From contig NW_008705579.1 in assembly GCF_000186865.1 (NCBI RefSeq), positions 259,931-323,930 of the forward strand: a DNA stretch of 64,000 bases, in the 5' to 3' direction. Source of the DNA: Aureococcus anophagefferens (Eukaryota > Sar > Pelagophyceae > Pelagomonadales > Pelagomonadaceae). Positions 7,201-51,600 of the stretch are shown here, piece by piece (position 1 is the first letter of the stretch; each line of letters starts with the position of its first letter). The position numbers and the translations under genes are program-made. The notes beneath the pieces are model-generated. The model did no database searches, was not told the DNA's origin, and saw nothing but the letters and a program-made list of their open reading frames with translations.

Positions 7201-10200
7201 CTTCCGGGGCCGCTGAAGATCGGGGCGAGCACCACACTCCCATAGGTCGAACAGCTGCAGCGAACCGCGTCGGACCGCGGCGCCGACGTCGCGCGCCTGG
7301 AGCGGGCCATCGAGACGCAGATCTCCCAGATCCGCGCGGACTTTCGCGACCTCGCGCGGTCGACGACCCGAGACGCCGCCGCGGCCGAAGTCCAATCCCT
7401 CAAGGAAAAGGTCGCCGAGCTCGCCGCGAGGAAGCCCGACGACCGCGCCGTCGTCGACGCCGTCGAGCGCCAGGCGGACCGGCTCGCCGCGGCGGTCAAG
7501 GACGCGGCCGCGGCGTCGCGCGGCCGCGACGGCGACGCGTTCCAGACTTTAGCCGCCGCCGTCGACGACCTCAAAAGGGCCGCGGCCGCGCCGCCGGACA
7601 CGAGCGCGCTCGCCAAGCAGATCGAGACGCACACGGCCGCGCTCCGCGCGTTTCGCAGCGTCGCGCAATTTGGGAAAGTTTTTGAAATGAAACTCGCAGG
7701 CGAGGAGATGCGCCACCTGCGGGAGTCGACGTCGCGCGACGCGGCCGCGGACGAGGTCAAGAACCTCCGCGAGAAGTTCCTCGAGTTCCAGGTCGCGGCG
7801 AACGCGCCCCGCGACGACCGCGACGCCGTCGCCCGCAACCTGGAGGCCCAGCTGGCCAAGCACACGTCCGCCGTCACCGCAGCGATCCGCGAGACGTCGC
7901 GGAGCGACGGCGCGAGGGACGACCTGAAGAGCCTCCAGCTCGATTTCCGCGCGCTCCAGGACACGGTGGCACGGGGCCTGGAGGACGCGCGGCGCGAGCG
8001 GCGCGCCGTGCACGAGGCGCCCGCGCCCGCGTCCGAGTCGCCGCGGCTGAAGGCGCTGGAGCGGTCCATCGCGGACATCGCCACGGGCCTCAAAGACGAC
8101 ATGGCGCGGCTCCGCGAGTCGACGGCGCGGGACCACGCCGCCGGCGCGTTGGCGTCGCTGTCGGAGAAGGTCTCCGCCCTGCAGTCGCGGCGCCCCGAGG
8201 AGCCGGCGTCGACGGTCGCCCGCAACCTGGAGGCGCAGCTCGCGCAGCACGCGGACCGCGTGCAGAACGCCATCCTCAACTCGAACACGCGCAGCGACGG
8301 CGTCAAGGACGAACTGCGGCATCTGCAGCAGACCATGCTGGACGTCCAGCGGCAGACGCGCGACGCGGCCGAGGGCAAGTACCAGGGCAGGACAAGAGAG
8401 CGAAATTCCCAACTTCAAAGCCTCATATCTCGGCCGTTTTCCACTCGTTTCGGCTGATTTTTGGACGAGCGATCATCTCTTGGAACGGCCTCGAAGCGTG
8501 GATGCTTTTTCCGGAACGCGCGCGCGCGGAACACTCACGTTGAAGCGACGTTGAATCTCTCTTTTCCTGCCCAGGCAAGCACGCGGACGTGTCGGCGTCC
8601 GTGCGAAACCTCGAGCAGCAGCTCGCGAGCCACAGCGCGTCGCTCCGCGACGAGATGAGGCACGTCACGGATGGCGCGGCGCGCAGCGCCGCCGCGGAGG
8701 AGCTACGGCGCCTCCACGAGACCGTCGCGGAGCTGAAGCGGCGCCCCGACGCCGAGGACGGGTCCGCCGTCGCCGTCAAGGCCCTCGAGCTTCAGCTCCA
8801 GCAGCACACGGCCACGATTCGCGACGCCATCACGTCGACGCGCAGCGGCGACCCTCGGGCCGACGAATTGCGGTCGCTCCAGCAGCAGGTCGTGGAACTT
8901 CGCGAGAAGAGTCGCGCGGACGCGGCGATCAGCGCCGCCATGGTCGCGATGACGCCCACGAAGGACGCGACCATGGAGCGCGAGTTCGAGAAGCACACGT
9001 CGGCGCTCCGCGCGTACGGCCGCGTCCGTGTGGCACGGTGTTCTTCATGCCGTTCTTCGCAGGCCTCGAGATGCGCGACCTCAGGGACGGCGCGGCGCGC
9101 GACCGCGCGTCCGAGGAGATCAAGATCCTCACGGACCGCGTCGGCGCGCTGTCGTCGTCCGACGACGGCGGCGCGTTGAAGGCTCTGGAAACGCAGCTCA
9201 ACCAGCACACGGTGGCGCTTCGCGAGGCGCGCTTCTCCGCGCGACTCGTTTCGCCCCGCGATCTCGTCGACGTCGCGCGTCGTAGGCCATCAAGGAGACG
9301 AACGCCGCCGGCGACGCGCGGAGCCGCGACGCGCGAGACGATCTGCGACGCCTCCAGGAGCAAGTCCTGGCGCTCCAAGAGAAACAAGCGCGGGCGTCGG
9401 CCGCGGCGATCGGCGAAATTCGCGACCAGGTCGGCGAGCTTCGACGGACCGCGGCGGACCAGGGGACCGCCGCGGGCAGGCTCGAGGCGTCCATCGCCGC
9501 GCAGACGGCCCAGCTGAAGGACGACGTGGGCCGCCTGCTCCGCGAGTCGACGCAGGCGGCCGCCGCGCTGTCGGAGAAGGCGTCGGCCGACGTCCGGCTC
9601 CTCGCGGAGAGGGTCTCGGCGCTCCAAGCCGCGACGAACCACGACAGCGCGGAGCGCGACGTCGTCAAGGTCCTGGAGGCCCAGCTCGCCGGCCACACGC
9701 AGTCGCTCCGCGAGGCCATCGTCGAGCGGCGCGGCGAGACGGAGGGCGAGCGCGCGCTGCGAGCGGAGCTCGAGGGCCTCAAGAGGTACGCGCTTCGCGT
9801 CCGCCGTACCTCAGATCACCCGTCTCCTTTAGGCACATGGACGAGCTGCGCGCCGCCGCGGCGAAGCCGCCGCCGGAGCCGTCGACGAAGGCGTTGGAGG
9901 AGGCCATCGCCGCGCACACGTCGTCGCTTCGCGAGGATTCCCGCGTCTCCTCGGCGAACGTTGAGAAGAAAAAAAACACGCGCCGCACCACAGGCGAGGA
10001 GATGCGCCACCTTCGCGAGTCGACGGCCCGGGACCGCGCCGCCGACGACCTGACGGCGCTCGCCGAAAAAGTCGCGCGGCTCGAGCAGGGCGCGCCGGGG
10101 CAGAAAGACGTCGCCGCGTCGTTGGAGGCGCAGCTCGCGCAGCACGCGAAGACGCTCACGGCGGCCATCGAGGGCGGGCGCGGCGAGGACCGGCGCGACG

Positions 10201-13127
10201 ACGAGCTCCGGCGCCTCCAGGCTCAGGTCGACGACGTGCGGCGCCAGGCCGAGGCGGCCGCGCGGCCCAAGACGGCGCCCGCGCCCGCGCCGACGGACGA
10301 CGAGACCAAGGCGGCCGTCGCCAAGCTCTCGGACCGCGTCGCGAGCGTCGTCGAGGAGCTCCGGGGCGACCGGAGCCGCGCCGCCGAGGCCGAGGCGCGG
10401 AGCCTCAAGGACGAGGTGAAGAGCCTCGAGGCTCGCCTCGAGAGTTCGGGCGGCGAGCGGAGCCGCGCGTCCGCGGAGAAGCTCGACGGCGCCCTCGCGC
10501 GCCAGCGCGAGGCGCTGGAGCAGGTCCTCCGGGACGCGACGCGGGATTTAAGGGACGAACTGCGGTCGACGGACGGCGCCGCGAAGGCGCGGGCCGCGGA
10601 CCTCGAGGGCAAGCTCTCGAGCGCCGCGGCGGCGGAGGCGTCGCGCGCGACGGAGCTCAAGCAGCAGCAGGACCTGATTCGCCAGGTCCAGAGCCAGCTC
10701 GAGGCGACGCAGCGCCAGCTCGACGATCTCCGGGGCGCCCACGACCGCGACGCGGCGTCCGCCGAGAAGGCGCGGCAAGCTCAGGAGACGACGGCGCGCG
10801 AGCTCGCGGAGCTCCGCCGCGAGCGCGAGCGCGAGGCCCTCTCGGCGGCGGCGGCGGAGCGCGCGGCGCTCGACTCGGCCATGAAGGCCCAGACGGCGGA
10901 GGTGGCCGCGCTCAAGCTCAAGCTCGCGGAGCGGGAGGCCGAGCCGCGGCCGTCGGGGACCGCCGCGTCCCTGGAAGCCATCCAGAAGCAGCTCGAGGAT
11001 CTCGCGTCGTCGCGGACGCGCCGGGGCCGGCGGCGCGACGGCGACTCGAGCGGCGACGAGGCGTCGGACCACCTGAAGCTGCTCCGCCGCGATCTCGCGG
11101 ATCTCAAGCGATCCCGGGAGGAGGACGCCGCGGCCGCGCGCGAAGCCCTGGAGGACATCGCCAAGCAGCTCGGCGACGTGCGCCAGAGCCAGGCGCCCCA
11201 GGTCGAGGACCACCACGACGAGGAGCTGCTGCTCCGGAGCCGCGGCGCGCGGGCGAACCGGCGGTCGCGGCAGCGGTACCAGGCCGACGACGACGAGTCG
11301 TCCCTCGGCAGCGGCCCCGCCGCCCGGCGGTCGCGGCGGCCCTACAACTCCAACGTGATCCACAACACGATCCACGCGGCCGCGCCCGCGGCCGCGCCGC
11401 GCGCGCCGCCCGTCTCCGACGCGCTCCGCGCCGAGCTCGACGACATCCGCGACGCCCAGGAGCGCAACGCGGCGGCGGCGCGCGCGGCCATGGACGTCGT
11501 CCAGCGCCAGCTCGGCGCCCTCGCGGGCCTCGACGCCTACGACGCGCCGCGGACCGCGCGGGGCCCCGGCCCGTCGCCGGCCGACGACGACCCCGACGAG
11601 GCCCTCGTGCCCCGCGAGCCGCTGCTGGCCGCGCGCGCGGGCGACGACGCCTACGCGGCGTCGTCGCTGGACGCCGTGCGCGGCCGTTTAGGGGCCATGC
11701 GCGAGCGGCGGTTCCGCGAGGCGCAGGACGCGGAGCGGCTCGAGCGCCGCGCGTTGCGGTCGACGATCCACGCGGCGCGCCGCGACGTCGCCGGCGAGGG
11801 CCAGGAACTGCGCCAGATGCTCGGCCTCATGCAGGACCAGCTCAAGACGCTGGACCGCGTCGTCGGGCTCGAGCCCTTCGCCGCGACGCCGCGCCGCGAC
11901 GAGCCGCGCGACGCGGTCTTCGAGGCGCCCGCGCCGCCGCCGGCCGACGACGCGCTCAAGACTTTGAAGCACATCCAGGCCCAGCTCGCCGACGCCCAGG
12001 CCGCGCGCAACGAGGAGGCCGCGAGCCGCGAGACGGCCGTGAAAGAGCTCGCCGCGGAGCTGGAAGTGTTAAAGCGCGAGAAGAAGGAGTCGGCCTGGAC
12101 GAGCGACGTCCTGGGCAAGGCGCGCGAGGACGCCGCGGAGACGTTGCGCCTGTCCATCGAGCCCCTCGCCGAGCGGCTCCAGGGTCTCGAGGAGGCGCGG
12201 GCGAAGGGCGAGGCCGGCGACGGCGCGCGGGACGAGGAGCGGCGGGCCAAGGCGGCCGACGACCTCCGGGCGTCCTTCGCGGCCGAGCGGTCGGGCTACG
12301 AGGCGCGCGTCGCCGCGTTGGAGCAGGACCTCGCCGCCGCGGAGGCGCGGGCGGCCAAGGCCCAGGAGGACAAGGCGGCCGCGGACGAGGACCGCGACGA
12401 CGCGGCGTCGCGGCTCGAGGCGCTCGAGCGCGCCGCGGCGGACCCGACGAAGGCTTTAGTGGACCGGAGTCGCGTCGTCGACGCCCTGCGCGCCCAGCTC
12501 GCCGACGCCGACGCCGCGAAAGATCGGGCCGAGCGCGCGACGGACGTCGACGGCTTCGCGCGCCAAGCGGCCGAGGACCTCGCGGCCGCGCGCCGCGAGG
12601 CCGGCGAGTGGCGGCGGCGCGCCGAGGGCGCGGACCGCGCCTGGGCGGACCTGAACCGCGACCGCGACGCGGCCCTCGCCGGCGAGCGGGGCGCGCGCGC
12701 GGAGCTCGAGGCGCGCGAGGCCGAGTTCCTCGGGACGCTCGCGGAGCGCGACGCGCGGTGCTCGAGCCTCCAGCGCGAGATCGCGCACCTCGCCCGCGAC
12801 GGCGAGGGCGACAAGCGCCGCGCCGACGCCGTCACCGTCCTCCGCGACGCGCTCCTGAAGACGCAGGCCGAGGACGTCGAACGCGCGCGGACCGCGCTCG
12901 CGCGGACGCGCGACCTCCTCGCGGCCCGCGACGCCCTCGCGCGCGCGGCGCCCGACGCCGACGCCGCGGCCTGGCGCGCCCGCGCCCGCGAGTACGAGGA
13001 CAAGTACCGGACCGCGGAGGCCCAGGGCGCCGTCGGCGACGTCCTCGCCGCGCGCGCGACCGCGGACCACCTCAACCTCGAGCTCGCCCGCGAGCGGCGG
13101 CGGACCAAGGCGCGGAAGGGCGGTTGA
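1213..13127 (+). CDS. Giant repetitive coiled-coil protein, about 3,459 codons, 15 inferred exons, 5' end unresolved
   Basis: Inferred exons: 1213-2128, 2254-2919, 3079-3314, 3512-3687, 3787-3956, 4006-4166, 4447-5289, 5344-7147, 7246-7645, 7700-8374, 8575-9009, 9063-9226, 9286-9785, 9833-9930 and 9994-13127. Every junction keeps phase, and the sum is 3,459 codons ending at a TGA. The product is almost wholly heptad-like, rich in Ala, Arg, Glu, Asp and Leu. Between about 4.4 and 10.2 kb it repeats a roughly 100-residue pattern with a core like LEAQLAxHTxxLREEMRHL and RESTARDxAxDEL. No motor, kinase or membrane segment was seen. Length and repeats suggest a cytoskeletal, centrosomal or axonemal scaffold, but that is inference. 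Introns are 47-280 nt, about half with GC donors; those at 5290 (54 nt) and 9931 (63 nt) are also open in frame. The 2129 and 3315 donors are uncertain, and no initiating ATG could be chosen. Confidence 0.7.
8375..8574 (+). mobile_element. Introner family 1, copy A, forming a whole intron in the coiled-coil gene
   Basis: A 200-nt GC-AG intron. The 8-bp duplication is GCAAGTAC at 8375-8382 and GCAAGCAC at 8575-8582 (7 of 8). The element has terminal inverted repeats (CAGGGCAGGACAAG at the left, CTTTTCCTGCCCAG at the right). The left duplication supplies the donor GCAAGT and the right terminal repeat supplies the acceptor CCCAG. Removal joins GAG-G to GC-AAG-CAC, giving EGKHADV with no lost or added residue. 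Orientation is sense relative to the gene. Confidence 0.9.
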
Positions 13128-13426
13128 GTCCTGTTTTGTGACTAAACTAGTGATATCTACGCTGGTTTCTGAGGTTGGACCGCGGCCGAGGCTCGTACGC
13201 GCGCGGGTCGAGACCTCGTGTTGGGGAGCGGCTCGCCGGCGACGCCGCCCGAGATGGCCGGAGCCGATCACCTTGCTCGGGCACCTTGTAGGAGCGGCTC
13301 ACAGCGTATTCTTCTTTTTTTTGGCGAGCGGCGCGCCGCGCCGCGGCGTCTGTGACTCGAAGTGAGAATTTGACTTTTTGCGACTCGTCGCGTCGCCGAG
13401 CGCCTCGCGGCCCACGGCCTTCGACG
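13128..13426. other. Intergenic; 3' end of the coiled-coil gene and promoter of the next gene
   Basis: No coding frame is supported. It contains a run of nine T within TTCTTCTTTTTTTTTGGCG near 13310-13324, which could serve as a core promoter or 3'-end signal, but no canonical polyadenylation motif or TATA box was found. Confidence 0.5.
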
Positions 13427-15762: not shown

Positions 15763-16023
15763 CCGGCGGCGCCGCGACGAGCTCGCGCCGAGAGACCTTC
15801 CCCCCCCGACCCGCGGACCATCGCCTCGCGCCGAGACACGCGGAGGAGGCCGGCCTGCCGGTGATTCCCACCCGTTCCCCGCCTTTTTTGTAACCACTTT
15901 TGACACCGGAGAGTCACGAGGGCGCGATGAGTCTCGGCGCTTTCAATTTCGGCACTCCATGACTTTCGGGCATCAAAGTGCCGTGAACGTGCCGCACGCG
16001 CTAAAAACGTCGGATCGCGGACG
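15763..16023. other. Intergenic
   Basis: The 260 bases between the two genes show no supported coding frame, RNA or repeat. Confidence 0.5.
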
Positions 16024-17661: not shown

Positions 17662-17849
17662 CGTCATCGTAAGCTTCGGGAGCGGCGGTGGCGCGAGCCA
17701 GACCTCAAGTATGACCTCAATACGGCGGATCTTGCCGCTCAAATCGAGCGACCACTTTGAGCTGGGACATCCGCTTTGCTTGCGTACAGCTCTCGACCAG
17801 ACCCTCCTCGCACACCGACACTCGCGCCTTGCGGCACAAATCGCAGACC

Positions 17850-18541: not shown

Positions 18542-18606
18542 TCACCTTCGCCCGCGCCGCCGCCGCCCCTGTGCCATAAAAAACCTCAATCAAACTTTGA
18601 AAACTT

Positions 18607-19650: not shown

Positions 19651-19861
19651 TTTTGTAGTCGTGTGTGATGGTGGTGGGTTGCTTGCAAGTCGAGCTGGCC
19701 GCCAAGTGGCGCTCGCACCTCGGCACCTCGGGCCGGACGGAATTGCCACAGCACCATGCCCCTCTCTTGCAAAGGTCCACTGTGGCTTGGAAACTCAGAC
19801 AATCCAAAAGCCGCCACCAAGCTCGCGCCACGCCGCTCGACCTCGCAGCTCCCACCGAACC

Positions 19862-27961: not shown

Positions 27962-29768
27962 CTAGATGTAGGCGGCGGTCTGGGCGTCGCCGACCCACGT
28001 GTCGAGGAACGCGTCGAAGTCGTCGTCGGACATGGCCGCGAGCTCGGCGTCACCCGGGAGCGGCGGCGCGAGGGGCGCGTTCTTGAGGACGTGCGCGATG
28101 AACGTGAGCGACGCGCGCGGGCGGAACTGGGGCACCATGTGGCCGCTGCCGTGGACCGTGGCGAACGATAGGCCGTGGTCGTAGTCGACGACGTGGCCGC
28201 CGAGCTGCGGCCCCGCGGCTTCCGTCGCGAGGTCCGGACCGAACAAGATGTCCTTCTCCTCCGTGATGAAGGCCGCGGCCGCCGCCGTCGCGTTGAAGAA
28301 CCAGGGCCGGTAGGCACTAACCTCGGCGAAGCCGACCGCCTTGATGGCCGTCCGCGTGCCCTCGTAGGACACGCAGGGGTCCGTGTCGCCGTTGAAGACG
28401 AGAATTGTGCCTGGGCAGCAAAAGGGTGCGAAATTCCCAACTTCAAAGGCTCCTATCTCGGTCGTTTTCCACTCGTTTCGGCTGATCTTTGGACGAGCGA
28501 TCATCTCTCGGAACGGTCTCGAAGCATGGATGCTTTTTCCGGAACGCGCGCGCGCGCGGAACACTCATGTTGAAGCGAACTTGAATCACTCTTTTCCTGC
28601 CCCGGATCGCGCCCGGCAGCTTCGGCGCCAAATACTCGTAGAAGTCGATCATGCTCGGGTGCTCGGCGTCGCGGGCGATGCCCGAGCACGCCGCGTAGGA
28701 CGACTCGTAGACCCAGGCGTCCGACGGCCCCGGCCAGTCCTTTGACGGCGCGTCGGACACGTGGAGCGCCGCGCGCACGTCCTCCGAGTTGAGCCACGAG
28801 GCCTGCTCGTAGTTGAGCGACCCGGGCACGTCCCAGCGCACGAGCGCCGACACGCCGTAGAGCGACACGTCGTTGATGAACCCCTTCGCCCAGGTCTGGG
28901 AGAAGGACCGCGACGTCGTCAGCAGGAACTTGCGGTGCGCCGCGAGGCACGTCGCGTTCTCGCTCTCCCGGAGCGTCGGCGCCGCCCGCAGGCCGCCCGC
29001 GGGGTCCACGTCGCGCGCCACGCGGCCGCCGCACTCGTTCCAGAGCAGCGTAAAATCGTCGTCGGGCACGAAGCCGTGCTTGTGGCCGTACCAGAGCATG
29101 TCCATGGAATCCTTCTGCGCGGCGTTGTCCGTGCACGGGTCGCCGACGGCCATGCCCACGAGATTCACGCGCGGCGTCGCGCCCGCGTCGTTGCCGTCGA
29201 CGAGCTCGCGGGCCAGCGTCGGGCAATACACGCCCGCGTAGGATTCGCCGGTGATGAAGAAGTCGTTGTCCGCGAGCTCGGGGAACTTGACGAAGAAGTC
29301 GCGGACGGCGTTCGCGTTCGCTTTCGCCGTGGTCTTGTCCGTCCAGCCGCAGTGGCCGCCGGTCTTCTGCGCCTCGCAGTAGGAGAAGCCCACGCCGCCG
29401 GGGGCCTCGAGCGCGAAGACGTTCGCGACCTTGGTCCACGACCACGGGTTCTCGACGAGCGCGCCGCCCTGGCCGACGAGCAGCGGGCCCGCCTCCTGCA
29501 TGAAGCCGAGGAGGGACGACGACCCGGGCCCGCCGTTGAGCCAGAGGACGACGGGCTTCGTGCGCCAGTCGTCCGCGCCCTCGTAGGCCGCGAACCAGTA
29601 GTGGAGGGTGCTCATGCCGCCGGACGTCGCGTTCCCGCCCTTGAGCCAGCCGGAGTACTGCGGGCTCGGGGGTTTGCCATAGCCCGGGAGGCTCGTAATG
29701 CGCTCCGCCGTCGGAGCTGCGGCCGCGAGGCCGAGGAGCGGAAGAAGAAGACGCGCTGCCATGGCCAT
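27962..29768 (-). CDS. Serine carboxypeptidase (peptidase family S10)
   Basis: Exons 29768-28613 and 28410-27962 (534 residues), separated by an introner. The precursor starts with a signal peptide (MAMAARLLLPLLGLAAAAPT). Family landmarks in order: PVVLWLNGGPGSSSLLG (substrate-binding loop), APGGVGFSY, GESYAGVYCPTLA with the nucleophile Ser near residue 175, VFNGDTDPCV with the catalytic Asp, and VHGSGHMVPQFRP with the catalytic His. The intron falls just before the Asp strand, joining LPG to TILVFNGDTDP. The enzyme would be secreted or lysosomal/vacuolar and release C-terminal residues from peptides. All three catalytic residues are intact. Confidence 0.9.
28411..28612 (+). mobile_element. 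Introner family 1, copy B, antisense intron in the carboxypeptidase gene
   Basis: A 202-nt intron of a minus-strand gene; the element itself reads forward on the plus strand, so it is antisense to the gene. Plus-strand ends are CTGGGCAGCAAAAG at 28411 and CTTTTCCTGCCCCG at 28591-28604. On the coding strand the donor side is GCGCGATC and the exon after the acceptor starts GCACAATT, a diverged duplication (5 of 8, all differences transitions). Splicing with the GC donor gives CTG-CCG-G/GC-ACA-ATT, in frame. Confidence 0.85.
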
Positions 29769-31216: not shown

Positions 31217-33830
31217 ATGTCGACGTGCGAGGCCCACAAGCTGACCCCGACCCCGCGTCGGAAGCGCGGCCTGAGCGTCGCCGGCACGGCGAGCCGCCAC
31301 GTCTTCCTCGACCCGAGCCTCGTCGAGCTCGTGCTCGAGGCCTGCGTCTCCCTGAACGACGTCAAGCTCCTGTCCGGCGTGTCGCGCGCGACGCGGCGCG
31401 CGCGCTGGCCCTTCGAGACGCTGAGCGGCCACGTGGGCATCCGCGCCATGATCGCGCGCTCCGGCGACGACACGTCCTTCGAGAACTGGGCGCGGACGGC
31501 CGAGGCGCCCAAGCTCAGCGACGCGAACATCGCGGCGATGGTCGAGCAGCTCAGCAGCTACCGGGCCATGGCGGCCTCCGGCGGCTTGCTGCGCCAGCTC
31601 TGCCCCGGGTGCACGCAGACGCTGCGGGAGGGCCTCGGCGCGTCCTGCGCGCGCGCGGCCTTCTCGCTCGGCTACTCGTGCGTCCGCTCCGGGGCGGCAC
31701 AAGGGTGATTCAACTTCGCTTCAACGTGAGTGTTCCGCGCGCGCGCGTTCCGGAAAAAGCATCCACGCTTCGAGAGCGCTCCGAGGGATGATCGCTCGTC
31801 CAAAAATCAGCGGAAACGAGCGGAAACCGGCCGAGATAGAAGTTGGGAATTTCGCACCCTTTCCCCGCCCAGGTCCGCTCCGAGTCCGGCTGGTCGAACG
31901 CGCACGCGATCATCGGCGCCTGCGGCCACGCGAGCCTGTTCGCCGTGGCCTTCGGGGAGTCCGACGATTTAGACGCGTCGCGGAGCGCGGGCTGGGGCCC
32001 GAAGGAGGCGTGCGCGTGGGCGCTCGTGCAGCTGTTATCGGTGGCCAAGAAGCGCATGTCGTGCAAGGCTTTGGTGGCCCAGCTCCGCCAGCTCGGCGTC
32101 GCCCGGGCCTGCGCCGACGCCGTGCTGGCGCCCTTGCCGATGCTCGAGGCGGGCCAGTCGAAGCGCCGCGCGTCGTCCGTCGGCCGCGCGGCGCGCGCGG
32201 GCGACCACCTCCGCGCCGGCAGCCGCGACTACGCGACGTCCGACGCGTCGCGGGAGCTCGGCGCCCAGCTCCTCTACCTCACGTCCACGGGCGACCCGGA
32301 CTACGTGGATCAGGTGTCGGCCTGCCCGCTGGAGCGGCTCGTGTCGTTCGCGTGCGACTTTGGGCACAAATCGACGGACGGGCGGCCCGACGCCCGGCGC
32401 CGCGCGCGCCACGCGGCCCAGTTCGCCGTGACCCACGGGCTGCACCTGCCCCAGGACGACGACCGCTCCGCGAGCCGCAAGCTCAGCTTCGCGCGCCACG
32501 TCGTCGACGCCGCGCGCGAGGCCGTCGCCGACGCGGCGGCGGCGAAGCGGTGCACGGCCGAGGCGCGCGACCGCGTCGCGGCGTTGGCGCTCGTCGCCGA
32601 CTCCTGCCCCGACGAGCTCGTCAACGTCGGCGCGCCCCGGGTCTGCGCCGACGTCCTGCGGAACGCCGACGTGCTGCTGCCCGCGGCGACGTACGGCGAC
32701 GCCGCGTCGGACAAGGCCTTGCAGGCCGTCGCGGACGCGTCGGCGTGCCTCGAGCAGGTGTCGCTCTACCTCGCGGAGTGCGACGCCGCGGCGGCGGAGG
32801 ACGACGACGAGGAGCTGCTGAACCACATGCTCGACGGCGAGCACGGGCTCACGCCCCAGCAGCAGCAGCAGCTCCAGCAGCAAAGGGCGAACCGGACGTC
32901 CCGCCAGGCGGCCGCGCTCGTCGACTGCCCCGCGGCGCTCGCGCGCCGCGCCGTCGAGCATTTGGGTGGCCTGGGCCCGCCGCCGCGGACGCACCCGGGG
33001 CCCTGGCTCCACGCCGTCGACAGCCTCGCGGCGTTCGTCGCGTCGCGGGCCGGCGCGCCGCGCGACGCGGAGGCGCTCCTCGGCGACCGCGCGAACCTGG
33101 CCTTCGTGGACGTGCTCCTGAAGGTCGAGCGCCGCGCCCAGGCGCACCGGCCCTTGGACGACGACCGCTTCTTCTACGGCGCGGACCGCGTCGACCAGGG
33201 CAGCAAAAGAGAGCGAAATTCCCAACTTCAAAGGCTCATATCTCGGCCGTTTTCCGCTCGTTTCGGCTGATTTTTGGACGAGCGATCATCTCTCAGAACG
33301 GTCTCGAAGCGTGGATGCTTTTTCCGGAACGCGCGCGCGCGGATTACTCACGTTGAAGCGACGTTGAATCACCCTTTTGCTGCCCAGGCGTCGACACGAC
33401 GGTCTTCGGCGTCCTCTCGGCGCTCGCGAAGCTGCCCCGGGGCCGCGAGGAGCTCGTGAACCTGGGCGGCCACGACCTGCTCCCGGCCCTCGACGCCGCG
33501 CCCGACGCCGACGACCTCGACGACGACGACCTCCTCGACGACTTCCCCATCGGCCCGGGCGGCGACGCGGGCGACGACGACGACGACGACGACGACGACC
33601 TCGACTCCGACGGCGACGACGACGACGACGACGACAACATCTACCTCGTCCTCGACGGCGACGGCGAGGACGACGACGACGACCACGAGCAGGCCCTCCT
33701 CCAGATGGTCGCCGCCGCCGCGGAGAACGGCGAGGAGGGCATCCCCGACGCGGTCATGCAGATGGTCGCCGCGGCCGTCGGCGACGACGACGACGACGAG
33801 GAGCTCGACGACGACGACGACGAGGACTAG
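31217..33830 (+). CDS. Helical-repeat (armadillo/F-box-like) protein with acidic tail, two introner introns
   Basis: Exons 31217-31681, 31873-33187 and 33388-33830 (740 residues); both introns are family 1 introners in opposite orientations. Residues ~28-65 ([20 protein letters not shown], then VSRATRR) resemble an F-box-like helix set. The middle is all-helical and armadillo-like ([20 protein letters not shown] ... [20 protein letters not shown]). The last ~110 residues are dominated by Asp runs interrupted by a hydrophobic helix repeated as [20 protein letters not shown] and [10 protein letters not shown]. This suggests a scaffold or histone/ribosomal-protein chaperone-like acidic tail, but no function is assigned. 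Confidence 0.7.
31682..31872 (-). mobile_element. Introner family 1, copy C, antisense intron with perfect duplication
   Basis: A 191-nt GT-AG intron. The 8-bp duplication GTCCGCTC is identical at 31682-31689 and 31873-31880. The element is in reverse orientation: it starts CGGGGCGGCACAAGGGTG and ends CGCACCCTTTCCCCGCCCAG. Splicing joins TGC to GTC-CGC-TCC (CVRSESG). An internal CGTGAGTG gives a stronger-looking cryptic donor, after an in-frame stop. Confidence 0.92.
33188..33387 (+). mobile_element. Introner family 1, copy D, sense intron with perfect duplication
   Basis: A 200-nt GC-AG intron. The duplication GCGTCGAC is identical at 33188-33195 and 33388-33395. The ends are CAGGGCAGCAAAAG and CTTTTGCTGCCCAG, near-perfect inverted repeats. 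Splicing restores GAC-CGC-GTC-GAC-ACG (DRVDT). It lies in the same gene as copy C, in the opposite orientation. Confidence 0.92.
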
Positions 33831-36507: not shown

Positions 36508-36621
36508 TTCGCGCCGCGAATTTCAAGCTGCTCCCAGTACATATAGATGGTCATCGCTGAAAGACCTTATTGCCACGGACCAAAAAGCTGGCTCATCAAG
36601 GCGCGCACACCGAGCCGCCCA

Positions 36622-37860: not shown

Positions 37861-37901
37861 TTTTTTGGGGGTCACAACATGATTACAACGAGCGCTCTTT
37901 T

Positions 37902-38420: not shown

Positions 38421-38710
38421 GCTGCTTGCGAAGTGGGGCGCGAGGCGCGCGGCGTCGTCGAGGGGCCGACCGAGCGGAGCTGCACAAATAGTTGACCTCG
38501 AGCTCCCGGCGGATTTATGTCAATGTTGCAATGTTGGCGCAGGTCTGAAACGAAAATGGTGCGAGCCCCGGCTGGAAGAAGCGCCCTCTAGGCGGCGGCG
38601 CTCACGGGACCGGCTGCCCCGGGCGCGCGGATCGGGTGCGCCACGGTCCGCGAAGCGGCGACGGGCGGTCCGCCACGACGACGAGCCCCGGCTGGCACGC
38701 GGTCGGCGAG

Positions 38711-41700
38711 ATGCAGGCGATGAGCAGCCCGCTCGCGGACCTCCAGGACAGCGTGTCGGCGCTCCACGTGACGCTGCGGCACCTCTGCCGGGCCCTCGAG
38801 GGGAACCTCGGCACCTGGCCCACGGGCGACCGCCTCGTCGCGGCGTCGTCGCTGCAGCGGCTCCTCGAGACGGACGCGCTGTTCAGCCTGCTCCAGGACC
38901 GCGCGCGCGGCGCCATCGCCGCCGCGCGCGAGGCGCGCGACTCCGGCGCGTCCGGCGCGTCCGGCGGCGAGGCGACGACGCCCGTCGGCGCCTACAAGAC
39001 GCTCGCGGACGTGCCGGCGGGCGTCACGCCCGCGAGCTTTCAGTCCGGCGCGTACGGCCGCCGCGGCAGCGGCGGCGCCGCGAGCTCCTACGGGGGCCGC
39101 GGCGGCAGTTTCCGGAGCGCCGTCTCCGAGGACGACCGGCCCGCGGCGCCGCCGGGCCGCCGGACGTCCATGGCCTCGCGCAAGTTCTCGACGGCGTCGT
39201 CGCGGCGGTTTTCCACGTTCAGCCGCCAGTCGAGCAACGCGTCCGTCGACGTCGTCGCCCAGGAGGTCATGCAGACCGAGTTCAGCGACATGGTCGACGG
39301 CCGCGCGGCCGCCGCGCGGCGCCAGTCGCGCGCGGCGCCGCGCGACTCGCCGCCCGCGTCGGACGCCGACGACAAGCCCCCCGAGAAGCCGCCCATGACC
39401 GAGGCCGCGCGCCTCGCCCTCATGTCCTACGCCGAGGAGATGCAGCGCGACGACGACAAGCGCAAGTCACAGATCGAGCGCAAGTCGCAGGTCGGGCGGG
39501 CCAGCTACGTCCGGAGCTCGTCCGCCGCGCGGCCGTCGAACGCGCGGCCGCGGCCGTCGCGCCTCGCGCCCGCCGCGTCGCCGAAGCGCGACGTCTCGCC
39601 CGAGAAGCCCAAGAAGGAAGAAAAAAAGCTCGCCAAGCACGCGCGCGCGGTCTCGCGGACGCTCCGCATGGCCAAATTGGCGACGTCGATGAAGAAGTCC
39701 ATGGCCAAGACCGCGCAGTCCGCGACGGGCACCGCGCGGCGCTTCTCGACGAAGCCCGGCGAGGGCCGGGCCTCCGCGACCGGCGGCTCGCCCTTCAGCC
39801 GGCGCATCTCGTCCGCGCAGGCGTCGTCCGCGGCGACGGAGCCGCGGCGCGCGTCGCGCGCGGCGAATCTGGACGTCATGAGCGAGGAGCACGAGGAGGA
39901 GGAGGAGAAGAGCTCGACGCCCAAGCTGCCCGAGCGGCTCCGCGCGTCCGTCATGGAGAAGGCCTCGCGGCCGTCGACGATCGCCGTCGCGCCGGAGCCG
40001 TCGAAGAAGGAGTCCGAGGCGTCCGAGGCGTCGGCCGTGGACCGCACGGCCGGCGGGGCGTTGGCGAAGAAGCTCGGCACGGGCGCCAACGGCGAGGACG
40101 TGTCCGTCGCCGTCGTCGACGCCGTCAACGAGTCCGCGCAGACGCCGGGGCGCGTCGCGCGGCTCTCCGAGGCGCGGCGCCTCCAGCACGGCGACGGCGA
40201 CGGCGGCGGCGGCCCGCTGAAGCGCATGATGTCCAAGGGCGTCATGAAGGTCGCGTCGCCCAAGGTCGAGCCCGAGCCGCCGGAGGAGCCCGAGAGCCCG
40301 TCGGACAAGTCCGAGGACGGCGGCGGCTCCGGCGCGCACGGCGTGTCCCACGACGCCTACCACGAGTTCATGCTCGACGGGTCGCCCACGGAACTGCTGC
40401 AGCACCTCCTGCCGGCGCTGGAGCACGGCCTGCGCGAGATCGCGAATTTGTACGTCGTCTTCATGGTGCCCGTGTTCTTGACGTTCCGCATGCCGACGGT
40501 GCTGCCCTGGGTCGTCGGCGTCTTCAACGTGCTCGTGGAGCTCTCCTGCGCGCGGGACTACTACGCCCAGGAGCGGGACCGGCGCACCCGCGGCGGCGAC
40601 GACGACGACGACGAGGAGGAGACGGACCGGCGCGGCCGCTACTTTCGCTTCTTCAACGTGACCGCGCTCGCGCCCGTCTGGACCGTCCAGTTCGCGCTGA
40701 GCCACGTCATGCCCCGGCGCATGGACGGCCTCCACCGCATCTTCACGGTGATCCAGACCGTGAAGCTCCTGCGCGTCGTCAAGCTGTCCAGGGACGCGGC
40801 CGTGTCGAAGTCGCAGGAGTCGCCGCTCATCATCCGGGGCCTGGGCATGGACCCCATCGTCTTCCGCATCGCCAAGCTCGTGGCCTTCTTCGTGCTCGTG
40901 CTCCACTACCTCGCCTGCGGCTACCACTTCGTCGGGCGCAAGTACGGCGAGCAGCACGACGAGGACGACCCGGGCTTCGACCTGTGTGGAATTCAACCAC
41001 TGGTTTGGGTGGTCCCGACCAAACTTGAGAATTCTCTAGCTCGGTCAAATCGAAGTCGATTCGGCTGATTTTTGGACGAATCGATTGCTCTTAGCGAGTT
41101 CTCGAAGCACGGCGGAAGTGCTCGTGTCAAAACATTCGCATACGCGCACATTGAAGTCGGGTTGAAGATTTGATTTGCACACAGGCTTCGACCCCATCGA
41201 CTGGGCGTACTACGCGCGCCACGGCCGGTCGCGCCACGTGGCCTGGAAGTGGGCCCAGTCCTACTACTGGGCGACCATGGCCGTCTTGGGCAACTACATG
41301 AAGCCCGAGAACGCGGCGCAGACCTACTACTCGACCGCGGCCGTGCTCGTCGGCATCTTCATGACGGCGACGATCACGGGCTCCGTGACGTCGCTGCTGG
41401 CGAACGCGGACGTCGTCGCCGCCCAGCACCGGGAGAAGCGGAGCCGCATGACGACGTACCTGCGCCACAACAAGGTGCCGGAGTCGCTGCGGGAGTCGAT
41501 CCACGCGTACTACGACTACCTCTGGAACGCGTCGTCCGTCACCGACGACGCGCTCTTCGGCGACCTGACGGAAACTTTAAAGCTCAAGCTCGCCCTCGCC
41601 GTGAAGCGCAAGTTCATCATGAGCTGCCCCCTCTTCAAGGCCCTGAACCCCTACGCGGTCATCAACCTCGTGCAGCGCCTCGAGCACCGCATCGCCGTGC

Positions 41701-42410: not shown

Positions 42411-42492
42411 ACTGTAGTCGAGGGTGGTTCCGCGGCCCGGAGCGGCCGCGCGTGACCTAGTCCGCCGGCGGGCGAGGTCAGACCCCGCTCGC

Positions 42493-43656: not shown

Positions 43657-43765
43657 CTTTTGCGCTAGAAAGCCGTTTCAATAGCGCGCGCTTGAACCTC
43701 TCCTTGAACTTTGACGTGGACGCCGCACGCGAGGCCGACACAAAGAGGCCTCCTCGCCATCGGCC

Positions 43766-45170
43766 ATGTCGTTCGGCGGCGTCTACGTCGCGGCGACGCG
43801 GCAGCACGTGGGCAAGACGAGCAGCTCCCTGGGCCTCGTCGCCGGCCTGCAGCGCATCTTCACTGGGAAAGGCGTGGGCTTCATCAAGCCCATGGGCCAG
43901 TCCCACGTCGAGCACGTCAACGACGACGGCTCCCGGGTGCTCATCGACAAGGACTGCCCGCTCTTCAGCGACCTGCTGGGCTGCCGGGGCACGCCCACGG
44001 ACATGTCGCCGCTCGTCGTGCCGCGCGGCTACACGAAGGCCTTCGTGGACCTCGACGACGCGGGCCGCGCGCGGCGCCGCGGCGAGGAGCTCGCGCGCAT
44101 CCGCGCGGCCCACGGCCGCATCGCCGACGACTCGGAGTTCGTCGTCGCCGAGGGCACGGGCCACACGGCCGTCGGGTCCATCCTCGGCCTCAACAACGCG
44201 ACGCTCGCGACCGCGCTGGACCTGCCCATGCTCCTCGTCGTCAACGGCGGCGTCGGCTCGGCCTTCGACGAGTTCGCGCTGAACCACGCCCTCATCGACC
44301 GCACGGGCGGCGCGCTCGCCGGCGTCCTGGTCAACAAGGTCGCGCCGGACAAGATCGACACGGTGCGGACCTACCTCGGCGCGCTCCTGGACCGCCGGGG
44401 CGTGCCGCTGCTGGGCGTCGTCCCCGACCGCGCGTTCTTCTCGAGCCCGACCGTGGCCGACTACCTGCGCCTCTTCGAGACGGACGTCGTCGCGCCCGCG
44501 GCGGGCGACGTGCGGACGCGGCACTTCGAGGCCGTGCGGCTGGCCTGCGGGTCCACGGCGCACTTCCTGCGCAAGTTCAAGCGGTCGCACCCGGCGACGC
44601 TCTGGGTCATCCACCAGTCGCGCGCGGATCTGATCCTGGCGCTGGCGTCGGGCGCCGCGGCGCGCGAGCGCGAGTCGGGCGAGCCCTACGCGGGCGGCCG
44701 GGCAGCAAAAGAGAGCGAAATTCCCAACTTCAAAGGCTCATATCTCGGCCGTTTTCCACTCGTTTCGGCTGATTTTTGGACGAGCGATCATCTCTCGGAA
44801 CGGCCTCGAAGCGTAGATGCTTTTCCGGAACGCGCGCGCGCGGAACACTCACGTTGAAGCGACGTTGAATCACTCTTTTGCTGCCCAGGCGGGCGGCCTC
44901 GTGCTCACGGGGAGGCCCCACGAGCGGTACCCGGACGGCATGGACCCGGAGATCGCGGAGTTCGTGCTCAGCGCCGCGTCCTACCCGATCTTCCTCTCGC
45001 GCGAGGCCTCGGACCGCACCGTGTCCCTCATCGACCGCTTCACGGCGAAGCTCAGCGTCCAGGACGAGGTCCGCGCGCGCGCGGTCGTCGACCACTACTC
45101 GGACCACGTCGACTTCGGCCTCTTGTTGGACCGCGTCGAGAAGCACCGCGCGCGCGCCGCGGCGTACTAA
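43766..45170 (+). CDS. BioD/CobB-like P-loop protein with DRTGG-type domain (phosphotransacetylase N-terminal-like)
   Basis: Exons 43766-44689 and 44889-45170 (401 residues), joined across introner copy E. The start (MSFGGVYVAATRQHVGKTSS) contains a dethiobiotin-synthetase-type P-loop. Next come IKPMGQ, VVAEGTGHTAVGSILGLNNA and LPMLLVVNGGVGSAFDEFAL, then LAGVLVNKV and VPLLGVVPDRAFFSSPTVAD. The second domain resembles DRTGG (RHFEAVRLACGSTAHFLR ... GGLVLTGRPHERYPD). In bacteria this pair forms the N-terminal part of long phosphotransacetylases; stand-alone forms are of unknown function. The DRTGG-like domain is interrupted by the intron. Confidence 0.75.
44690..44888 (+). mobile_element. Introner family 1, copy E, sense intron with perfect duplication
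   Basis: A 199-nt GC-AG intron. GCGGGCGG is identical at 44690-44697 and 44889-44896. The ends are CCGGGCAGCAAAAG and CTTTTGCTGCCCAG. Splicing restores TAC-GCG-GGC-GGC-CTC (YAGGL). It is the closest in sequence to copy D, differing at only a few positions, so both look young. Confidence 0.92.
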
Positions 45171-45177
45171 CACGCGG

Positions 45178-46833: not shown

Positions 46834-46999
46834 TCCCGAGCCGCTCTCAGGACGAGAGATGGGCTGCCCAGACTCTCCAGTCGTGCACGGGAAATATCAT
46901 CTCGTAAGATACACATTGAGCTTCGTTTATCAGCGCGGGCATAGAGGCGGCGGCTACCGACGCGCCCGTCATTTCGCCGCCCCGGCCGCCGGCGGGACC
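46834..46999. promoter_or_regulatory. Shared divergent promoter region
   Basis: 166 bases separate the starts of the CH-C2 gene (minus) and the coiled-coil gene (plus), so both must initiate here. The middle is less GC-rich (GGAAATATCATCTCGTAAGA near 46890). No defined factor site was recognised. Confidence 0.4.
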
Positions 47000-47792
47000 A
47001 TGTCGACGAGCAACTCGCTGCCCGGGGAGGCGCCCGGGGACTTCGATTCGAAGATGCTCGTCGCGAAGCAGAAGCGGAAGCAGGCGGAGCACGACCGCCA
47101 GCTTTTACTGAACCGCATCGCGCTCCTGAAGAAGGAGGAGGACCGGGCGTGCGGTCCCGCGGCGTCCCACATCGCGCGGCCCCGAATCCCACGGGCGCGC
47201 TCGCAGGTACAAGAAGATCCACAAGACGAAGTCGCGCGCCGAGGAGATCCTTCGCATCCGCATCGAGCACGAGCGGGAGACCGCGGAGCGCGAGGCGAAG
47301 CAGCGGCGCGAGCTGCGGAGACGGCAGCTCGAGGCGGAGATCAACATGGCCCAGGAGGAGCAGAGCCGCAAGAACCGCCAGGCCCAGATCTCCCTCATCC
47401 AGCAGCAGAAGCGCGAGGACGTGCACGCGGTCCGCGAGGAGGCCGCGCGCGCGCGCGAGGAGATCCGCGTCCAGCGCCTCAACGACGTCGTCGAGAAGCA
47501 GGAGAAGCGCGCCGCCATCAAGCAGCACGAGGACGAGGTCAAGCGCCGCCGCGCGGCGGAGCGGCGGGACGTGCTCCGCGCGAACCGACGCGACTACGAG
47601 GACAAGGTCGCGCGCGAGGTCGAGGAGACGGCCGTGCGCGAGCGCGAGGTCGTGCGCATGGAGCGCATCGAGATGAACCTCATCCAGAAGCTGAAGAAGA
47701 CGCAGATCATCCAGCAGCAGGCGTTCGAGGACCTCGAGCAGGCCCTCAACGGCGACCTGTCCCAGATGGCGCCGACCGACCAGGACCGATGA
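47000..47792 (+). CDS. Charged coiled-coil protein of 244 residues
   Basis: Exons 47000-47148 and 47207-47792; a 58-nt intron with donor GTGCGG and acceptor TCGCAG restores RAYKKIHKTK. After a disordered start (STSNSLPGEAPGDFDSKMLV) the protein is an almost continuous helix rich in Arg, Glu, Lys and Gln (ETAEREAKQRRELRRRQLEA). Such short basic coiled coils are common among flagellar and microtubule-associated proteins, but no family is recognised. Confidence 0.7.
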
Positions 47793-47977
47793 GTGCGACG
47801 CATGCGCCGCGTGGCCCAGGAGGGGGGGCGCCCGAGCGACTAACGACTCGATGCAGCGAGTCTCGCGACTCGACGAGGCGCGAGGTCCCGTCCCCGGCGA
47901 AGTTACGACCCGCGCGCGTCGCGCGGGCCGTCTTCGTCGTTGGCATCGCCGCCCGCCGCGCGGCGTCCGGGTTCCCT

Positions 47978-48523
47978 CTACTTGCTTTCCGCGTCGATGG
48001 GCGGCGCGTCGATGGCCTTCTTCGACGAGGCGGGCTCGACGGAGTCGAGGCCCTCCTTGAACTCCTTGGGCACGTCCTTGAGCTCGCCGGCGACCTTGCC
48101 AAAGTCCTTGGCCATGGAGCCGAGCTTCTCGGGCCTGCGCGGCGGGGGGAGTGAGGGGTCGCCGGCGGGCGTCGATGCGGGGCGCGGCGGCCGCGCCCGA
48201 GGACGAACGCCGCGATGCCGAGGCAGACCGCGAGCTCCGGCGGGCCGAGGCCGAAGAGGCTCATGGCGACGTTTCTGCGCGGGCAGCGACGGTTGTCTTC
48301 CGGGTCGCGCCGGCGCGGGCGGGGGAGGGCGCGCGCGCGGGCCGGCGAGGATCGGCGCGGCGACGCACCGGCTCGGCAGGGCGACGGGCGCGCGCGATCG
48401 GACGAACTGCTGCGGCGCGACGCTCCGCGCGCGCGCGCCGACGGGGGCGAGGCTCGGCCTCGCGACGAAGGCCGCCGCCGACGCGGCGAGGAGGATGATC
48501 CGCGCGAGGACTGCCATCGTCAA
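47978..48523 (-). CDS. tatA: Plastid twin-arginine translocase subunit TatA
   Basis: Three exons, 48523-48369, 48274-48197 and 48134-47978 (129 residues), with introns of 94 nt (GT-AG) and 62 nt (GC-AG). The precursor starts with a signal peptide ending in AAAF (AVLARIILLAASAAAFVARP), followed by a Ser/Arg-rich transit-like stretch. This is the bipartite leader with Phe at the cleavage site used for secondary red plastids. The mature part is MSLFGLGPPELAVCLGIAAF then VLGPEKLGSMAKDFGKVAGE: membrane helix, Gly-Pro hinge and amphipathic helix of TatA. Splicing at VLG/PEKLG rebuilds the family's most conserved block. Confidence 0.85.
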   Translation of the reverse strand: MTMAVLARIILLAASAAAFVARPSLAPVGARARSVAPQQFVRSRAPVALPSRCVAAPILAGPRARPPPPAPARPGRQPSLPAQKRRHEPLRPRPAGARGLPRHRGVRPRARPPRPASTPAGDPSLPPPRRPEKLGSMAKDFGKVAGELKDVPKEFKEGLDSVEPASSKKAIDAPPIDAESK

Positions 48524-48676
48524 TCGATGCTCTGTTTTTGCACCGAGGCCTTCAATCGAGCCATTCTGCTCGGTTCAACTAAAAAAGAAATGCACTGTTT
48601 TTTGTACCGCGGCTGCCGCACCGAGAGAGCATGGCGACGCCGCCGTGAGCGGCAGCGACGCCTCCACGGTCACGTC

Positions 48677-51600
48677 ATGAAGACGCCGCTGTCGCCGCTG
48701 TCGCCCGGCAGCGTCGGCTCGATCTACTCCGGCACGCCGCTCGAGTACGTCGAGACGTCGCCCGCCGGGGATGGTGCCGTGCGCATCGGCTGCTACGCGC
48801 TGAACCTCGGCGGTGCGCAACCCCCCGAGGACCTCGAGGCGTCGATCCCGGCGCAGGGCGGCGACCGGGACATCATCGCCGTGACGCTGCTCCAGAGCTC
48901 CTACCGCTGCAGCGCCGAGCTCCTGAACCGGTCGCGGCGCGCGTACGCGCGCGGCGACGGGAGCGAGCACCGCGAGGCGCCCGGCAGCCACAGCCCGCAC
49001 CGCGAGGCGTCGCTGGGGCCCGGCCGCGCCTGGTGCTGGGACGACGACGACAGCGACGAGCTCTGCGCCGACGTCTACCCCGAGTCCGCGGCCGTCGCCC
49101 GGGAGAGCGTCCGCGAGGCGCCCGAGGCGAGCACGATGATCAAGATCCTGACGGACGTCGTCGAGCGCCACTCCCACTTCGCAAAGTCGCCGGAGGCCAT
49201 GGACCTCGCCTACATGACGCTGGGCGCGCGCTGCCGCTTCAGCGGCCTCGACACGAAGACGCTCAACGCGCCGGCCGGCGCGGGAAAAGCGCGCGACGGT
49301 CCCAGAGGCTCCTCGAGCTCGGTCGCTTCCCACTCGTTTCGGCTGATGTTTGGACGAGCGATCATCTCTCGGAGCGGTCTCGACGCGTCGATGTTTTCTT
49401 TTCTGGAAAGCGCGCGCACCCGCGTTGAAGCGAATGACCGCCCAGGTGCTGGCGGCGGCGCACGACGCGCGCAAGGCCGCGGAGCATCTCGTGGACCCGG
49501 AGGCGCCGGCCCACGACCGCGCGCGCCACCTCGAGCGGCGGTCGAAGCTCCTGCGAGACGCGACGGCGGCCTACCTGAAGGCGCTCGAGGGCGCGCCCGG
49601 ATGCCTCGGCGCGTGGTACGGCCTCGGCCTCTGCCAGCGGGCGCTCGGCGACCTCGTCGCGTCGCTGCGCGCCTTCGACATGGTGCTCCGCGCGTCGGCG
49701 GACGGGTCCCTCGACGGCGGCGAGGCGCCGGGCGCGGCCTGGAACGCGCGCGCGCGGTCGCTGATCCGCGTCGGCCGGCCCGTCGAGGCCGCGGCGTCGT
49801 TCCGCGTCGCGCTCGCGTGCGCGCGGCGCCCCGTCTACGAGAGCAACCTGGCCATCCTCGAGGCCGCCGTGCGCGCCCACGCGGAGGCCCTCTCGGAGCG
49901 CAGCGACAAGGCCGTCGCCGAGGGGCCCTGGGTGACGCCGCCGGGCGTCGACCGCGGGGCGGGAAAAGGGTGATTCAACGTCGCTTCAACCGTGAGTGTT
50001 TCGCGCGCGCGCGTTCCGGAAAAAGCATCCACGCTTCGAGAACACTCCGAGAGATGATCGCTCGTCCAAGAATCAGCGGAAACGAGTGGAAAACGACCGA
50101 GAGAGGAGCCTCCAAAGTTGGGAATGTCGCACCCTTTTCCTTGCCCAGGTCGACTGCGGCCACCTGTACATCGCGGCGTCGCGCGAGTCCGACGATCTGC
50201 TGGCGAAGAAGGGCGGCGCGCGGCTCGTGAGCGCCGCGCGGCGCCACGCCCTGGGCCTGCGCCACAGCGCGCTGAAGAAGGACCTCGTGGCCTACGACGG
50301 CGAGCACGCGGCGGTCCGCGCGGCGGCGGCGGCCGCGCGGCCGGACGTCGTGCCCGACCCGGCGGTCGTCGGCGAGCCCCAGGTGTCCGTGCGCGCCTTC
50401 GGCGACGACCTGCGGCGCGGCGCCGAGCACCTGAGCCGGACGCTGCGCATCCACCTCGGCGGCGACTGGCGCGTCGTGGCCGCGGAGCGGAGCGGCGACT
50501 TCCGGTTCCGCGTCTACGCGCGGCCGCGCGTCGCCGCGGCGGCGTCGCGCGTGCAGACGTCCCTCGTCGCCGCGGTCATCGACGGCATGGCGCCGAGCGG
50601 CGGCGCCGTCGCGACGGCCTTCAAGTTCGAGACCTGGACGCTGGCCCTCGTCGGCGCGAACATTCTTCCGACGGGCGCGGCGCTCGAGGCCGCGGCCGCG
50701 GGCGACGGCGCGTCGTCGCCGCCGTCGTCGCCCACGGGGGCGGCGCGCACTCGGCCCGCGGCCATGGAGCGGCGGTCGAGCTGGTCGCCGGCCGGCGCGC
50801 CGCGGGAGCGCGCGCGCGCCGAGGCCGACCGCGTCGTGCCCGTGTCCAGGACGCGGTGCTGCGGCCGGAGCGCGCTCGCGAACCGCCTGCTCGCGGCGAC
50901 GCTCGCCGCGCTCAAGGTCGGCGACGAGCGCCGCGGGCCCAGCGAGCAGTTCAGCCACTGCGTCGTCTTCGGGCACCTCGGGTACGGCGCGCCGCACAGC
51001 GGCCGCCACGAGGACCCCCTCCTCGGCGAGATCAAGTGCTGCCGGGCCCTCGCGGGCTTCTCCTGCGACGCGTCGCCGCGGTTTTCGGCGCCGGACGGCG
51101 GCCCGACGCGGCCGCGGTCGCCCTTCGCGGCCGCGGCGGACGCGGGCGGAGGGCCGCTGCCGCTCCGCGTGGCCTGGCGGTCGTCGGCGACGGAGTTCCG
51201 GCGCCTCACGGTCGAGGCGTCGAGCCGCGCGCCCGTGGACGGCGCCACGTGCAGCGCGCGCGCGGCGCTCCTCGTCCGCGTGGACCCGCGGCCCCCGGCC
51301 GCGTACCTCGGCGGCGCGGACAAGCGGAAGATGCCCAAGCTCGTGCTCCGCGACGTCCACGTGACCTACCTGCCGAACAGCGCCTTCGGCGCGCCCATCC
51401 AGGCCTACTTTTTGCTGAGCATGGAGCCGCCGTCGCTGCTCTGGACCTGGATGACGCCGAAGCTGCGGTCGGGCATCTCGCAGGCGTTCCCGATGGCCCT
51501 CGCGACGATGAACCGCGCCGACGGCGGCGGCCCGGTCCCGAGCGAGGACGCGGGCGACGGCGACGGCGAGGGCCCGGGCGACGGCGCGAGCCCGCGGGCG

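Follow-up and report, generated by a model that had tools for sequence, protein, structure and literature searches.

What kind of element can sit as a near-identical intron in several different genes and leave each of their reading frames intact? This question is raised by a 64,000-nt stretch of Aureococcus anophagefferens DNA (contig NW_008705579.1, positions 259,931 to 323,930; G+C 70.8%), which we refer to as the window and in which a sequence-only reading had picked out seven copies of one short DNA transposon (family 1), each forming a complete intron. All seven proved to be present, and we put the probability that they are introners at about 95%, meaning that they would be non-autonomous inverted-repeat DNA transposons acting as introns, with a 5′ splice site of the form GY (GC or GT) supplied by the target duplication and a 3′ splice site supplied by their own CAG. 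The copies are listed below with their window positions, the strand of the host gene, the number of matching bases in the 8-bp duplication, and the coding scores of the joined frame on its two sides.

8375..8574, + strand: family-1 introner; intron of 200 nt; donor GCAAGTAC, which is the left duplication copy; acceptor CCCAG; core in gene sense; duplication 7/8; joined frame 53/47 bits, 0 stops.
28411..28612, − strand: family-1 introner in a serine carboxypeptidase gene; intron of 202 nt; donor GCGCGATC at 28612-28605; acceptor at 28411; core against the gene; duplication 5/8; joined frame 45/46 bits, 0 stops.
31682..31872, + strand: family-1 introner; intron of 191 nt; donor GTCCGCTC; core against the gene; duplication 8/8; joined frame 49/37 bits.
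33188..33387, + strand: family-1 introner in the same gene as the 31682 copy; intron of 200 nt; donor GCGTCGAC (a GC donor); core in gene sense; duplication 8/8; joined frame 48/88 bits.
44690..44888, + strand: family-1 introner in a BioD-like (AAA_26) gene; intron of 199 nt; donor GCGGGCGG (a GC donor); core in gene sense; duplication 8/8; joined frame 50/63 bits.
49268..49445, + strand: family-1 introner, decayed copy; intron of 178 nt; donor GCGCCGGC; acceptor CCCAG; core in gene sense; duplication 6/8; joined frame 62/57 bits, 0 stops.
49947..50148, + strand: family-1 introner in the same gene as the 49268 copy; intron of 202 nt; donor GTCGACCG; core against the gene; duplication 7/8; joined frame 48/55 bits, 0 stops.

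The host gene lies on the + strand at six of the seven copies and on the − strand at 28411, and none of the seven intron lengths is divisible by 3. The core was recognisable in 7/7 copies, on the + strand in those at 8375, 28411, 33188, 44690 and 49268 and on the − strand in those at 31682 and 49947. With introns that start at the left duplication copy (GC in 5/7, GT in 2/7) and end with the element's own CAG, the joined exons of all seven read as one strongly coding frame on both sides without a stop (240 nt per side, scored with a codon model trained on the long open frames of the window, hence on C19 and not on C1, the contig sampled below), which bears out the proposal that splicing between these points restores the host frame. 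Left unspliced, six of the seven are interrupted by stops, the exception being the copy at 49268, whose length is not a multiple of 3. The claim that all seven carry 8-bp target duplications stood for three copies, in which the duplication is exact, but had to be qualified for the other four, which show one mismatch (two copies), two mismatches (one copy) or three (one copy). A perfect terminal inverted repeat, as first described, was not what we observed: the acceptor end reads CTGGGC in 7/7 and the donor end C[A/G/C]GG, never CT.

Copies across the genome and their splice sites

The sequence-only reading had also proposed that copies be counted across the genome. The 18-mer core CGGCTGATTTTTGGACGA, which is common to two introner families, gave 1,855 exact matches (934 + 921) in the 49.05-Mb genome, and the reversed control gave none. 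Requiring the exact 8-base ends of family 1 (CAGGGCAG..CTGCCCAG) with 160-185 nt between them, we counted 1,134 elements (577 + 557) against one in the control; family-1 elements are mostly 192 bp long, with ends CNGGGCAG. Viral contigs held two matches to the core, and by eye there was no introner around either.

Our C1 sample comprised 100 of the 1,855 core matches, all on one contig (C1) and selected by core rather than by ends. Ninety-six of these were examined, leaving out two places with short flanks and two that duplicate another copy over the 98 nt surrounding the core; one of the four (in L050), tested separately, fits, with a duplication of 8/8, a GC donor and 53 bits. The duplication matched at 8/8 positions in 71 of the 96 copies, at 7/8 in 16, at 6/8 in 8 and at 5/8 in 1, that is, at 7/8 or better in 87/96. 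Since our boundary caller favours matching duplications and matching ends, the counts of weaker duplications are upper bounds. After splicing, 88/96 copies had coding sequence on both sides in a single frame, while only 0-1/96 passed when the junction was moved by 1 or 2 nt or when both duplication copies were kept. With this share in coding frame and duplications in nearly all of them, the sampled copies are not mostly outside genes or devoid of duplications. Among 20 copies selected by their ends, which overlap partly with the 96, the intron began with GY in 20/20, the duplication had 0-2 mismatches, and 18/20 scored above 15 bits on both sides, L010 and L021 being weak on the right. Near-identical introns in many unrelated genes are a hallmark of introners, and this is what we found.

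In the 88 coding C1 copies, the duplication began with GC in 53, with GT in 31 and with another dinucleotide in 4, so that GY was present in 84/88, compared with the 20.1% expected at coding-DNA positions of the window; the acceptor was CAG in 83/88. Six rows of the C1 sample break the GY rule, the CAG rule or both; they look like mis-called boundaries and were counted as misses. The constraint to GY and CAG, like the copies themselves, their duplications and ends, the restored frames and the coding location, is read directly from the DNA. One splice site is carried by the element and the other comes from the duplication, with the frame restored, as is characteristic of introners. Positions 3-8 of the duplication showed no strong donor consensus in the 88 copies, the most marked feature being G at position 3 (41/88, a count not compared with background). 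GC made up 60% (47/79) to 63% (53/84) of the GY donors; because GC accounts for 80% of GY in coding DNA, GT is mildly but significantly favoured among donors (p = 3e-5 and 3e-4, only 2.3-2.7 fold in odds).

These observations are consistent with a mechanism in which a non-autonomous inverted-repeat transposon of about 192 bp inserts by a cut-and-paste-type reaction, with a transposase presumably acting in trans, and generates an 8-bp target duplication. Where the target 8-mer starts with GC or GT as read on the coding strand, its left copy would provide the corresponding 5′ splice site, and a 3′ splice site, made of a short run rich in pyrimidines and the CAG, would come from the far end of the transposon. 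Splicing of the RNA would then remove the element together with one copy of the duplication and would for that reason leave the mRNA unchanged. Genic insertions lacking a GY-starting 8-mer or an acceptor AG would presumably be purged. As the donor seems to face few demands other than GY, and as the coding DNA is very GC-rich, most of the resulting introns would be GC-AG. We find it scarcely conceivable that the copies are instead ordinary old introns homogenised through gene conversion or the reverse splicing of intron RNA, even though passages of Gozashti et al. (2022; PMC9860276) propose RNA-based routes for fungal introners. The exact 8-bp duplications (71/96), the inverted ends, and the occurrence of both core orientations relative to the gene (51 of the 88 coding C1 copies with the gene and 37 against it) argue for DNA transposition. 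Reverse splicing would give a single orientation and no 8-bp duplication.

Host proteins, probable transcripts and gene models

Homologous proteins run without interruption across the site at four of the window copies (44690, 28411, 31682 and 33188), in a comparison of proteins only. The protein of the 44690 host gene shares 99% identity over the aligned part with A. anophagefferens JL722_14450, that of the gene holding the 31682 and 33188 copies shares 99% identity with JL720_367, and that of the 28411 host shares 93% identity with an A. anophagefferens peptidase model with different exons. The 28411 host also has carboxypeptidase matches in PDB, to which the junction-spanning stretch alone gives only 1.7 bits. 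P0024 (532 aa, equal in length to the spliced model) and other homologues continue uninterrupted across the 28411 junction, as do P0144 and the more distant homologues P0150 and P0152 at the 31682 and 33188 sites. Together with the 88/96 copies in frame and the GY share of 84/88 against 20.1%, these homologues support the proposal that short non-autonomous transposons form introns here.

The contigs that encode P0144 and P0024 are probably transcripts, which would include the use of GC donors at 33188 and 28411. P0144 is a protein of 740 aa on a 2,375-nt contig and matches the spliced model over both the 31682 and the 33188 junction; if it held both introns, the contig would have to reach 2,614 nt. 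The P0024 contig has 1,628 nt, and a version bearing the intron at 28411 would need 1,801 nt. At the 28411 site, P0024 has A where the window exon has T, and the intronic left copy GCGCGATC would encode A, as expected if the left duplication copy kept the original codon.

Several observations weigh against the introner reading. Eight of the 96 C1 copies fail the coding test; among them, L010 and L044 lie near the threshold and have GY and CAG, L084 shows no coding signal although it has GY and CAG, the ends of L045 and L083 are unclear, and in L046 the duplication offers GY on neither strand. P0144 and P0024 could be intron-less alleles. No transposase was found with hAT, KDZ and MULE profiles, the only ones searched: the hAT profiles (PF05699 and PF14372) gave 0 matches with silent controls, which is no proof of absence, the KDZ profile (PF18758) gave 0 with a silent control, and the MULE profile (PF10551) gave 0 with 3/14 controls matched. 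Finally, three public gene models, JL722_14450, JL720_367 and JL721_2240, place the donor at an internal GT.

These three models carry a 24-aa insert, JL720_367 and JL721_2240 at the 33188 site and JL722_14450 at the 44690 site, which matches, letter for letter, what roughly the first 72 nt of the copy encode (33188-33259 and 44690-44761), joined at the internal GT. Taken at face value, they would mean that the donor actually used is the internal GTTTCG of the core and that a sense-oriented copy adds 24 residues (72 nt) to its host protein. We regard this as very unlikely. All three internal-GT models are products of genome annotation, and gene finders are generally reluctant to accept GC donors such as those at both sites. 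Other proteins lack the insert, namely P0001 and a second JL722 model, P0004, at 44690, and P0144, JL722_14448 (P0147), P0150 and P0152 at 33188. A rule based on internal GTTTCG also fails for the copies with the core against the gene (37/88 coding), whose ends and GY are the same. If the donor is the GY of the duplication, as the introner reading has it, there is possibly a wider annotation error at GC-donor introners. Judged by the inserts in these gene models, the 33188 copy is present in strains JL720 and JL721, and the 44690 copy in JL722.

Element ends, core orientation and a second family

Over their first 12 bases, the two ends have at least 8 matching positions in 87/96 C1 copies and at least 10 in 66/96, as inverted terminal repeats do, in a sample for which the boundary caller favours matching ends. 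Whichever way the core points, family-1 elements have T as the second base of the acceptor end, which the acceptor AG requires, and A at the same position of the donor end. Among 48 family-1 copies on C1, 24 had A on the left and T on the right, 14 had T on the left and A on the right, and the rest had G or C at the donor end, one being mis-called. In an 80-copy family-1 set, chosen for elements ending in AG, the base at the donor end was A (61 copies), G (14) or C (5) but never T, and the acceptor base was T in 80/80; in the C1 sample, without selection by ends, the acceptor end was CTG in 83/88. One of 47 rows roughly sorted as family 1 (L076) had T at the donor end, and its core is of the family-2 type. 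Genome-wide, we counted 1,134 elements with asymmetric ends, 13 places with T at both ends and 0 with A at both; on reading, six of the 13 are true 192-base elements and seven are shifted matches. Among the places listed, which are the first of the 1,134, 34 have the core against the gene by eye.

These ends resemble those of hAT miniature inverted-repeat transposable elements (MITEs) in part. The hAT end rule is YARNG. As in hAT MITEs, the duplications are 8 bp long and the donor end CAGGG fits this rule, but the acceptor end CTGGG breaks it, so that the 80-copy set does not have YARNG at both ends (donor A 61/80, acceptor T 80/80).

Within a copy, the inner 7-mers of the left and right ends were identical in 46/80 cases, compared with a shuffled mean of 17.4 and a maximum of 29, so the two ends of a copy are held to similar sequences. 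Both this likeness and the inversion of the core could come about through exchange or template switching between the ends. On a tree of 48 copies, the core-orientation labels (F with the gene, R against it) required 7 changes, 1 of them forced by well-supported branches, compared with 14.3 for shuffled labels; on a tree of 80 copies they required 11, 4 of them forced in this way, compared with 21.7. Most branches are weak. A single R clade was not rejected by the approximately unbiased (AU) test (p = 0.28). Repeated flipping of the core is compatible with these trees, which are suggestive of it without proving it.

An autonomous parent with matching ends, for which the sequence-only reading had suggested a search, did not emerge from a limited search of 14-base ends. 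None of the 20 places matching CWGGGCAGSAMAAG, a pattern whose subterminal base keeps ordinary introners out (reversed control 5), held a longer element with the same ends, and a search of this kind would miss a parent that resembles the introners at the subterminal bases or matches them only at the very start of the ends. L071 has the core, as do 18 of the other 19 places, and the last (L119) reads as an internally deleted introner. At positions 303-425 of L119, the ends of a family-1 copy with its core deleted (about 120 nt) are recognisable by eye.

The second family, family 2, consists of elements mostly 203 bp long with ends CTGTGTGG/CCACACAG and has a 20-nt core in common with family 1. 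It is represented in the window as follows.

40974..41184, + strand: family-2 introner; intron of 211 nt; duplication GCTTCGAC; ends CTGTGTGG..CACACAG; ends placed by eye, frame not scored.

On C1, the two core orientations of family 2 are about equal, and the acceptor-type end is often present on both sides. T/T ends were found in 22/41 coding copies, 11 in each core orientation, and in these copies GY stays at the sense 5′ side in either orientation. Because copies with symmetric ends keep GY on that side, the GY filter follows the strand of the host transcript and not the element, as selection for splicing predicts and a target preference of the transposase does not. We also considered that the donor-end A of family 1 might keep the acceptor AG out of a terminal hairpin. 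The idea agrees with a single fold computed for the 33188 copy, which is not unusually stable (z −0.44), and with the lack of T at all 80 family-1 donor ends, but it is not needed, given the T/T ends of coding family-2 copies.

The window also contains repeats of other kinds. Near-identical direct repeats lie within one region at 60168-61206 (242 nt at 98% and 141 nt at 97%), and a 150-nt unit is present in two tandem copies, 92% identical, at 53784-54083.

Published introners and the GC-AG excess

Huff, Zilberman and Roy reportedly described introner elements of A. anophagefferens with the same mechanism in Nature in 2016. The analogy with Aureococcus drawn by the sequence-only reading is close to identity, since the species is Aureococcus itself, and because the mechanism has been published for A. 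anophagefferens it is already known; very probably the finding is known in kind and also in these copies. Matched by description and not by sequence, the window copies probably belong to the published A. anophagefferens set, with which they agree in species, a length of ~200 nt, a non-autonomous transposon nature, direct and inverted repeats, the combination of a splice site of their own with a co-opted one, and the presence of both orientations; no difference from that set emerged. Passages of the relevant articles report direct repeats with inverted repeats of constant length (PMC7789003), co-option of one splice site (PMC9612004) and insertion in both orientations (PMC10228655) for the introners of this species, and a characteristic introner length of about 210 bp has been given (PMC9481584). 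The canonical splicing motifs ascribed to them in a passage of PMC7789003 do not fit the GC-donor majority here.

Our copies can also be compared with other introners described in passages of Gozashti et al. (2022; PMC9860276). As in their Fig. 2B, which concerns Symbiodinium and a 4-bp duplication, the 3′ splice site is carried and the 5′ site comes from the duplication, whereas here the duplication is 8 bp long and GC donors reach 60-63%, compared with 0-50% per family in their data. Family 4 of their Aureococcus sp. carries both splice sites and adds 12 nt, unlike the copies here. Amoebophrya introners, as described in a passage of PMC7789003, likewise have inverted and direct repeats at the intron ends, but their direct repeats are 3-5 nt long, their inverted repeats 8-20 nt, and their splice motifs highly varied.

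We see an even chance that the GC-AG excess of A. anophagefferens is a by-product of introners, which would sample 8-mers of GC-rich coding DNA and be screened for little but GY, and that, in addition, either the family-1 core has flipped within the terminal repeats that enclose it, with the splice site left in place, or the same end asymmetry evolved in two lineages. Extrapolating from the donors of introner introns in A. anophagefferens only, such sampling would explain the GC-AG pattern across A. anophagefferens, M. pusilla and Micromonas RCC299, the last of which we take to be M. commoda. According to passages of a 2011 survey, GC-AG introns make up 39.6% in A. anophagefferens, 22.2% in Micromonas pusilla and 2.7% in Micromonas RCC299; there, the excess is tied partly to genomic G+C, the U1 5′ end is of consensus type in all three species, and the origin of the excess is called "an enigma" (PMC3033335). 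Introner counts given in passages of Gozashti et al. are 3,566 in M. pusilla and 44 in M. commoda (PMC9860276). The U1 small nuclear RNA (snRNA) profile RF00003 gave 0 matches with a silent control and is uninformative. No link between introners and the GC-AG excess appears in passages of PMC3033335, PMC3488318, PMC6310983, PMC7789003 and PMC10228655; Huff 2016, PMC4028052 and PMC4770533 were not covered, so we do not claim its absence from print.

What is added here to the published picture is the GC-donor share, the one-base end asymmetry kept in both core orientations, the three gene models with translated inserts, and the limited parent search. The long-contig assembly supports a mechanism that makes introns by the thousand, and at least three published A. 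anophagefferens protein models hold apparently artefactual 24-residue inserts of intron sequence. The GC-AG puzzle of A. anophagefferens becomes simply testable by comparing the donors of introner and non-introner introns.

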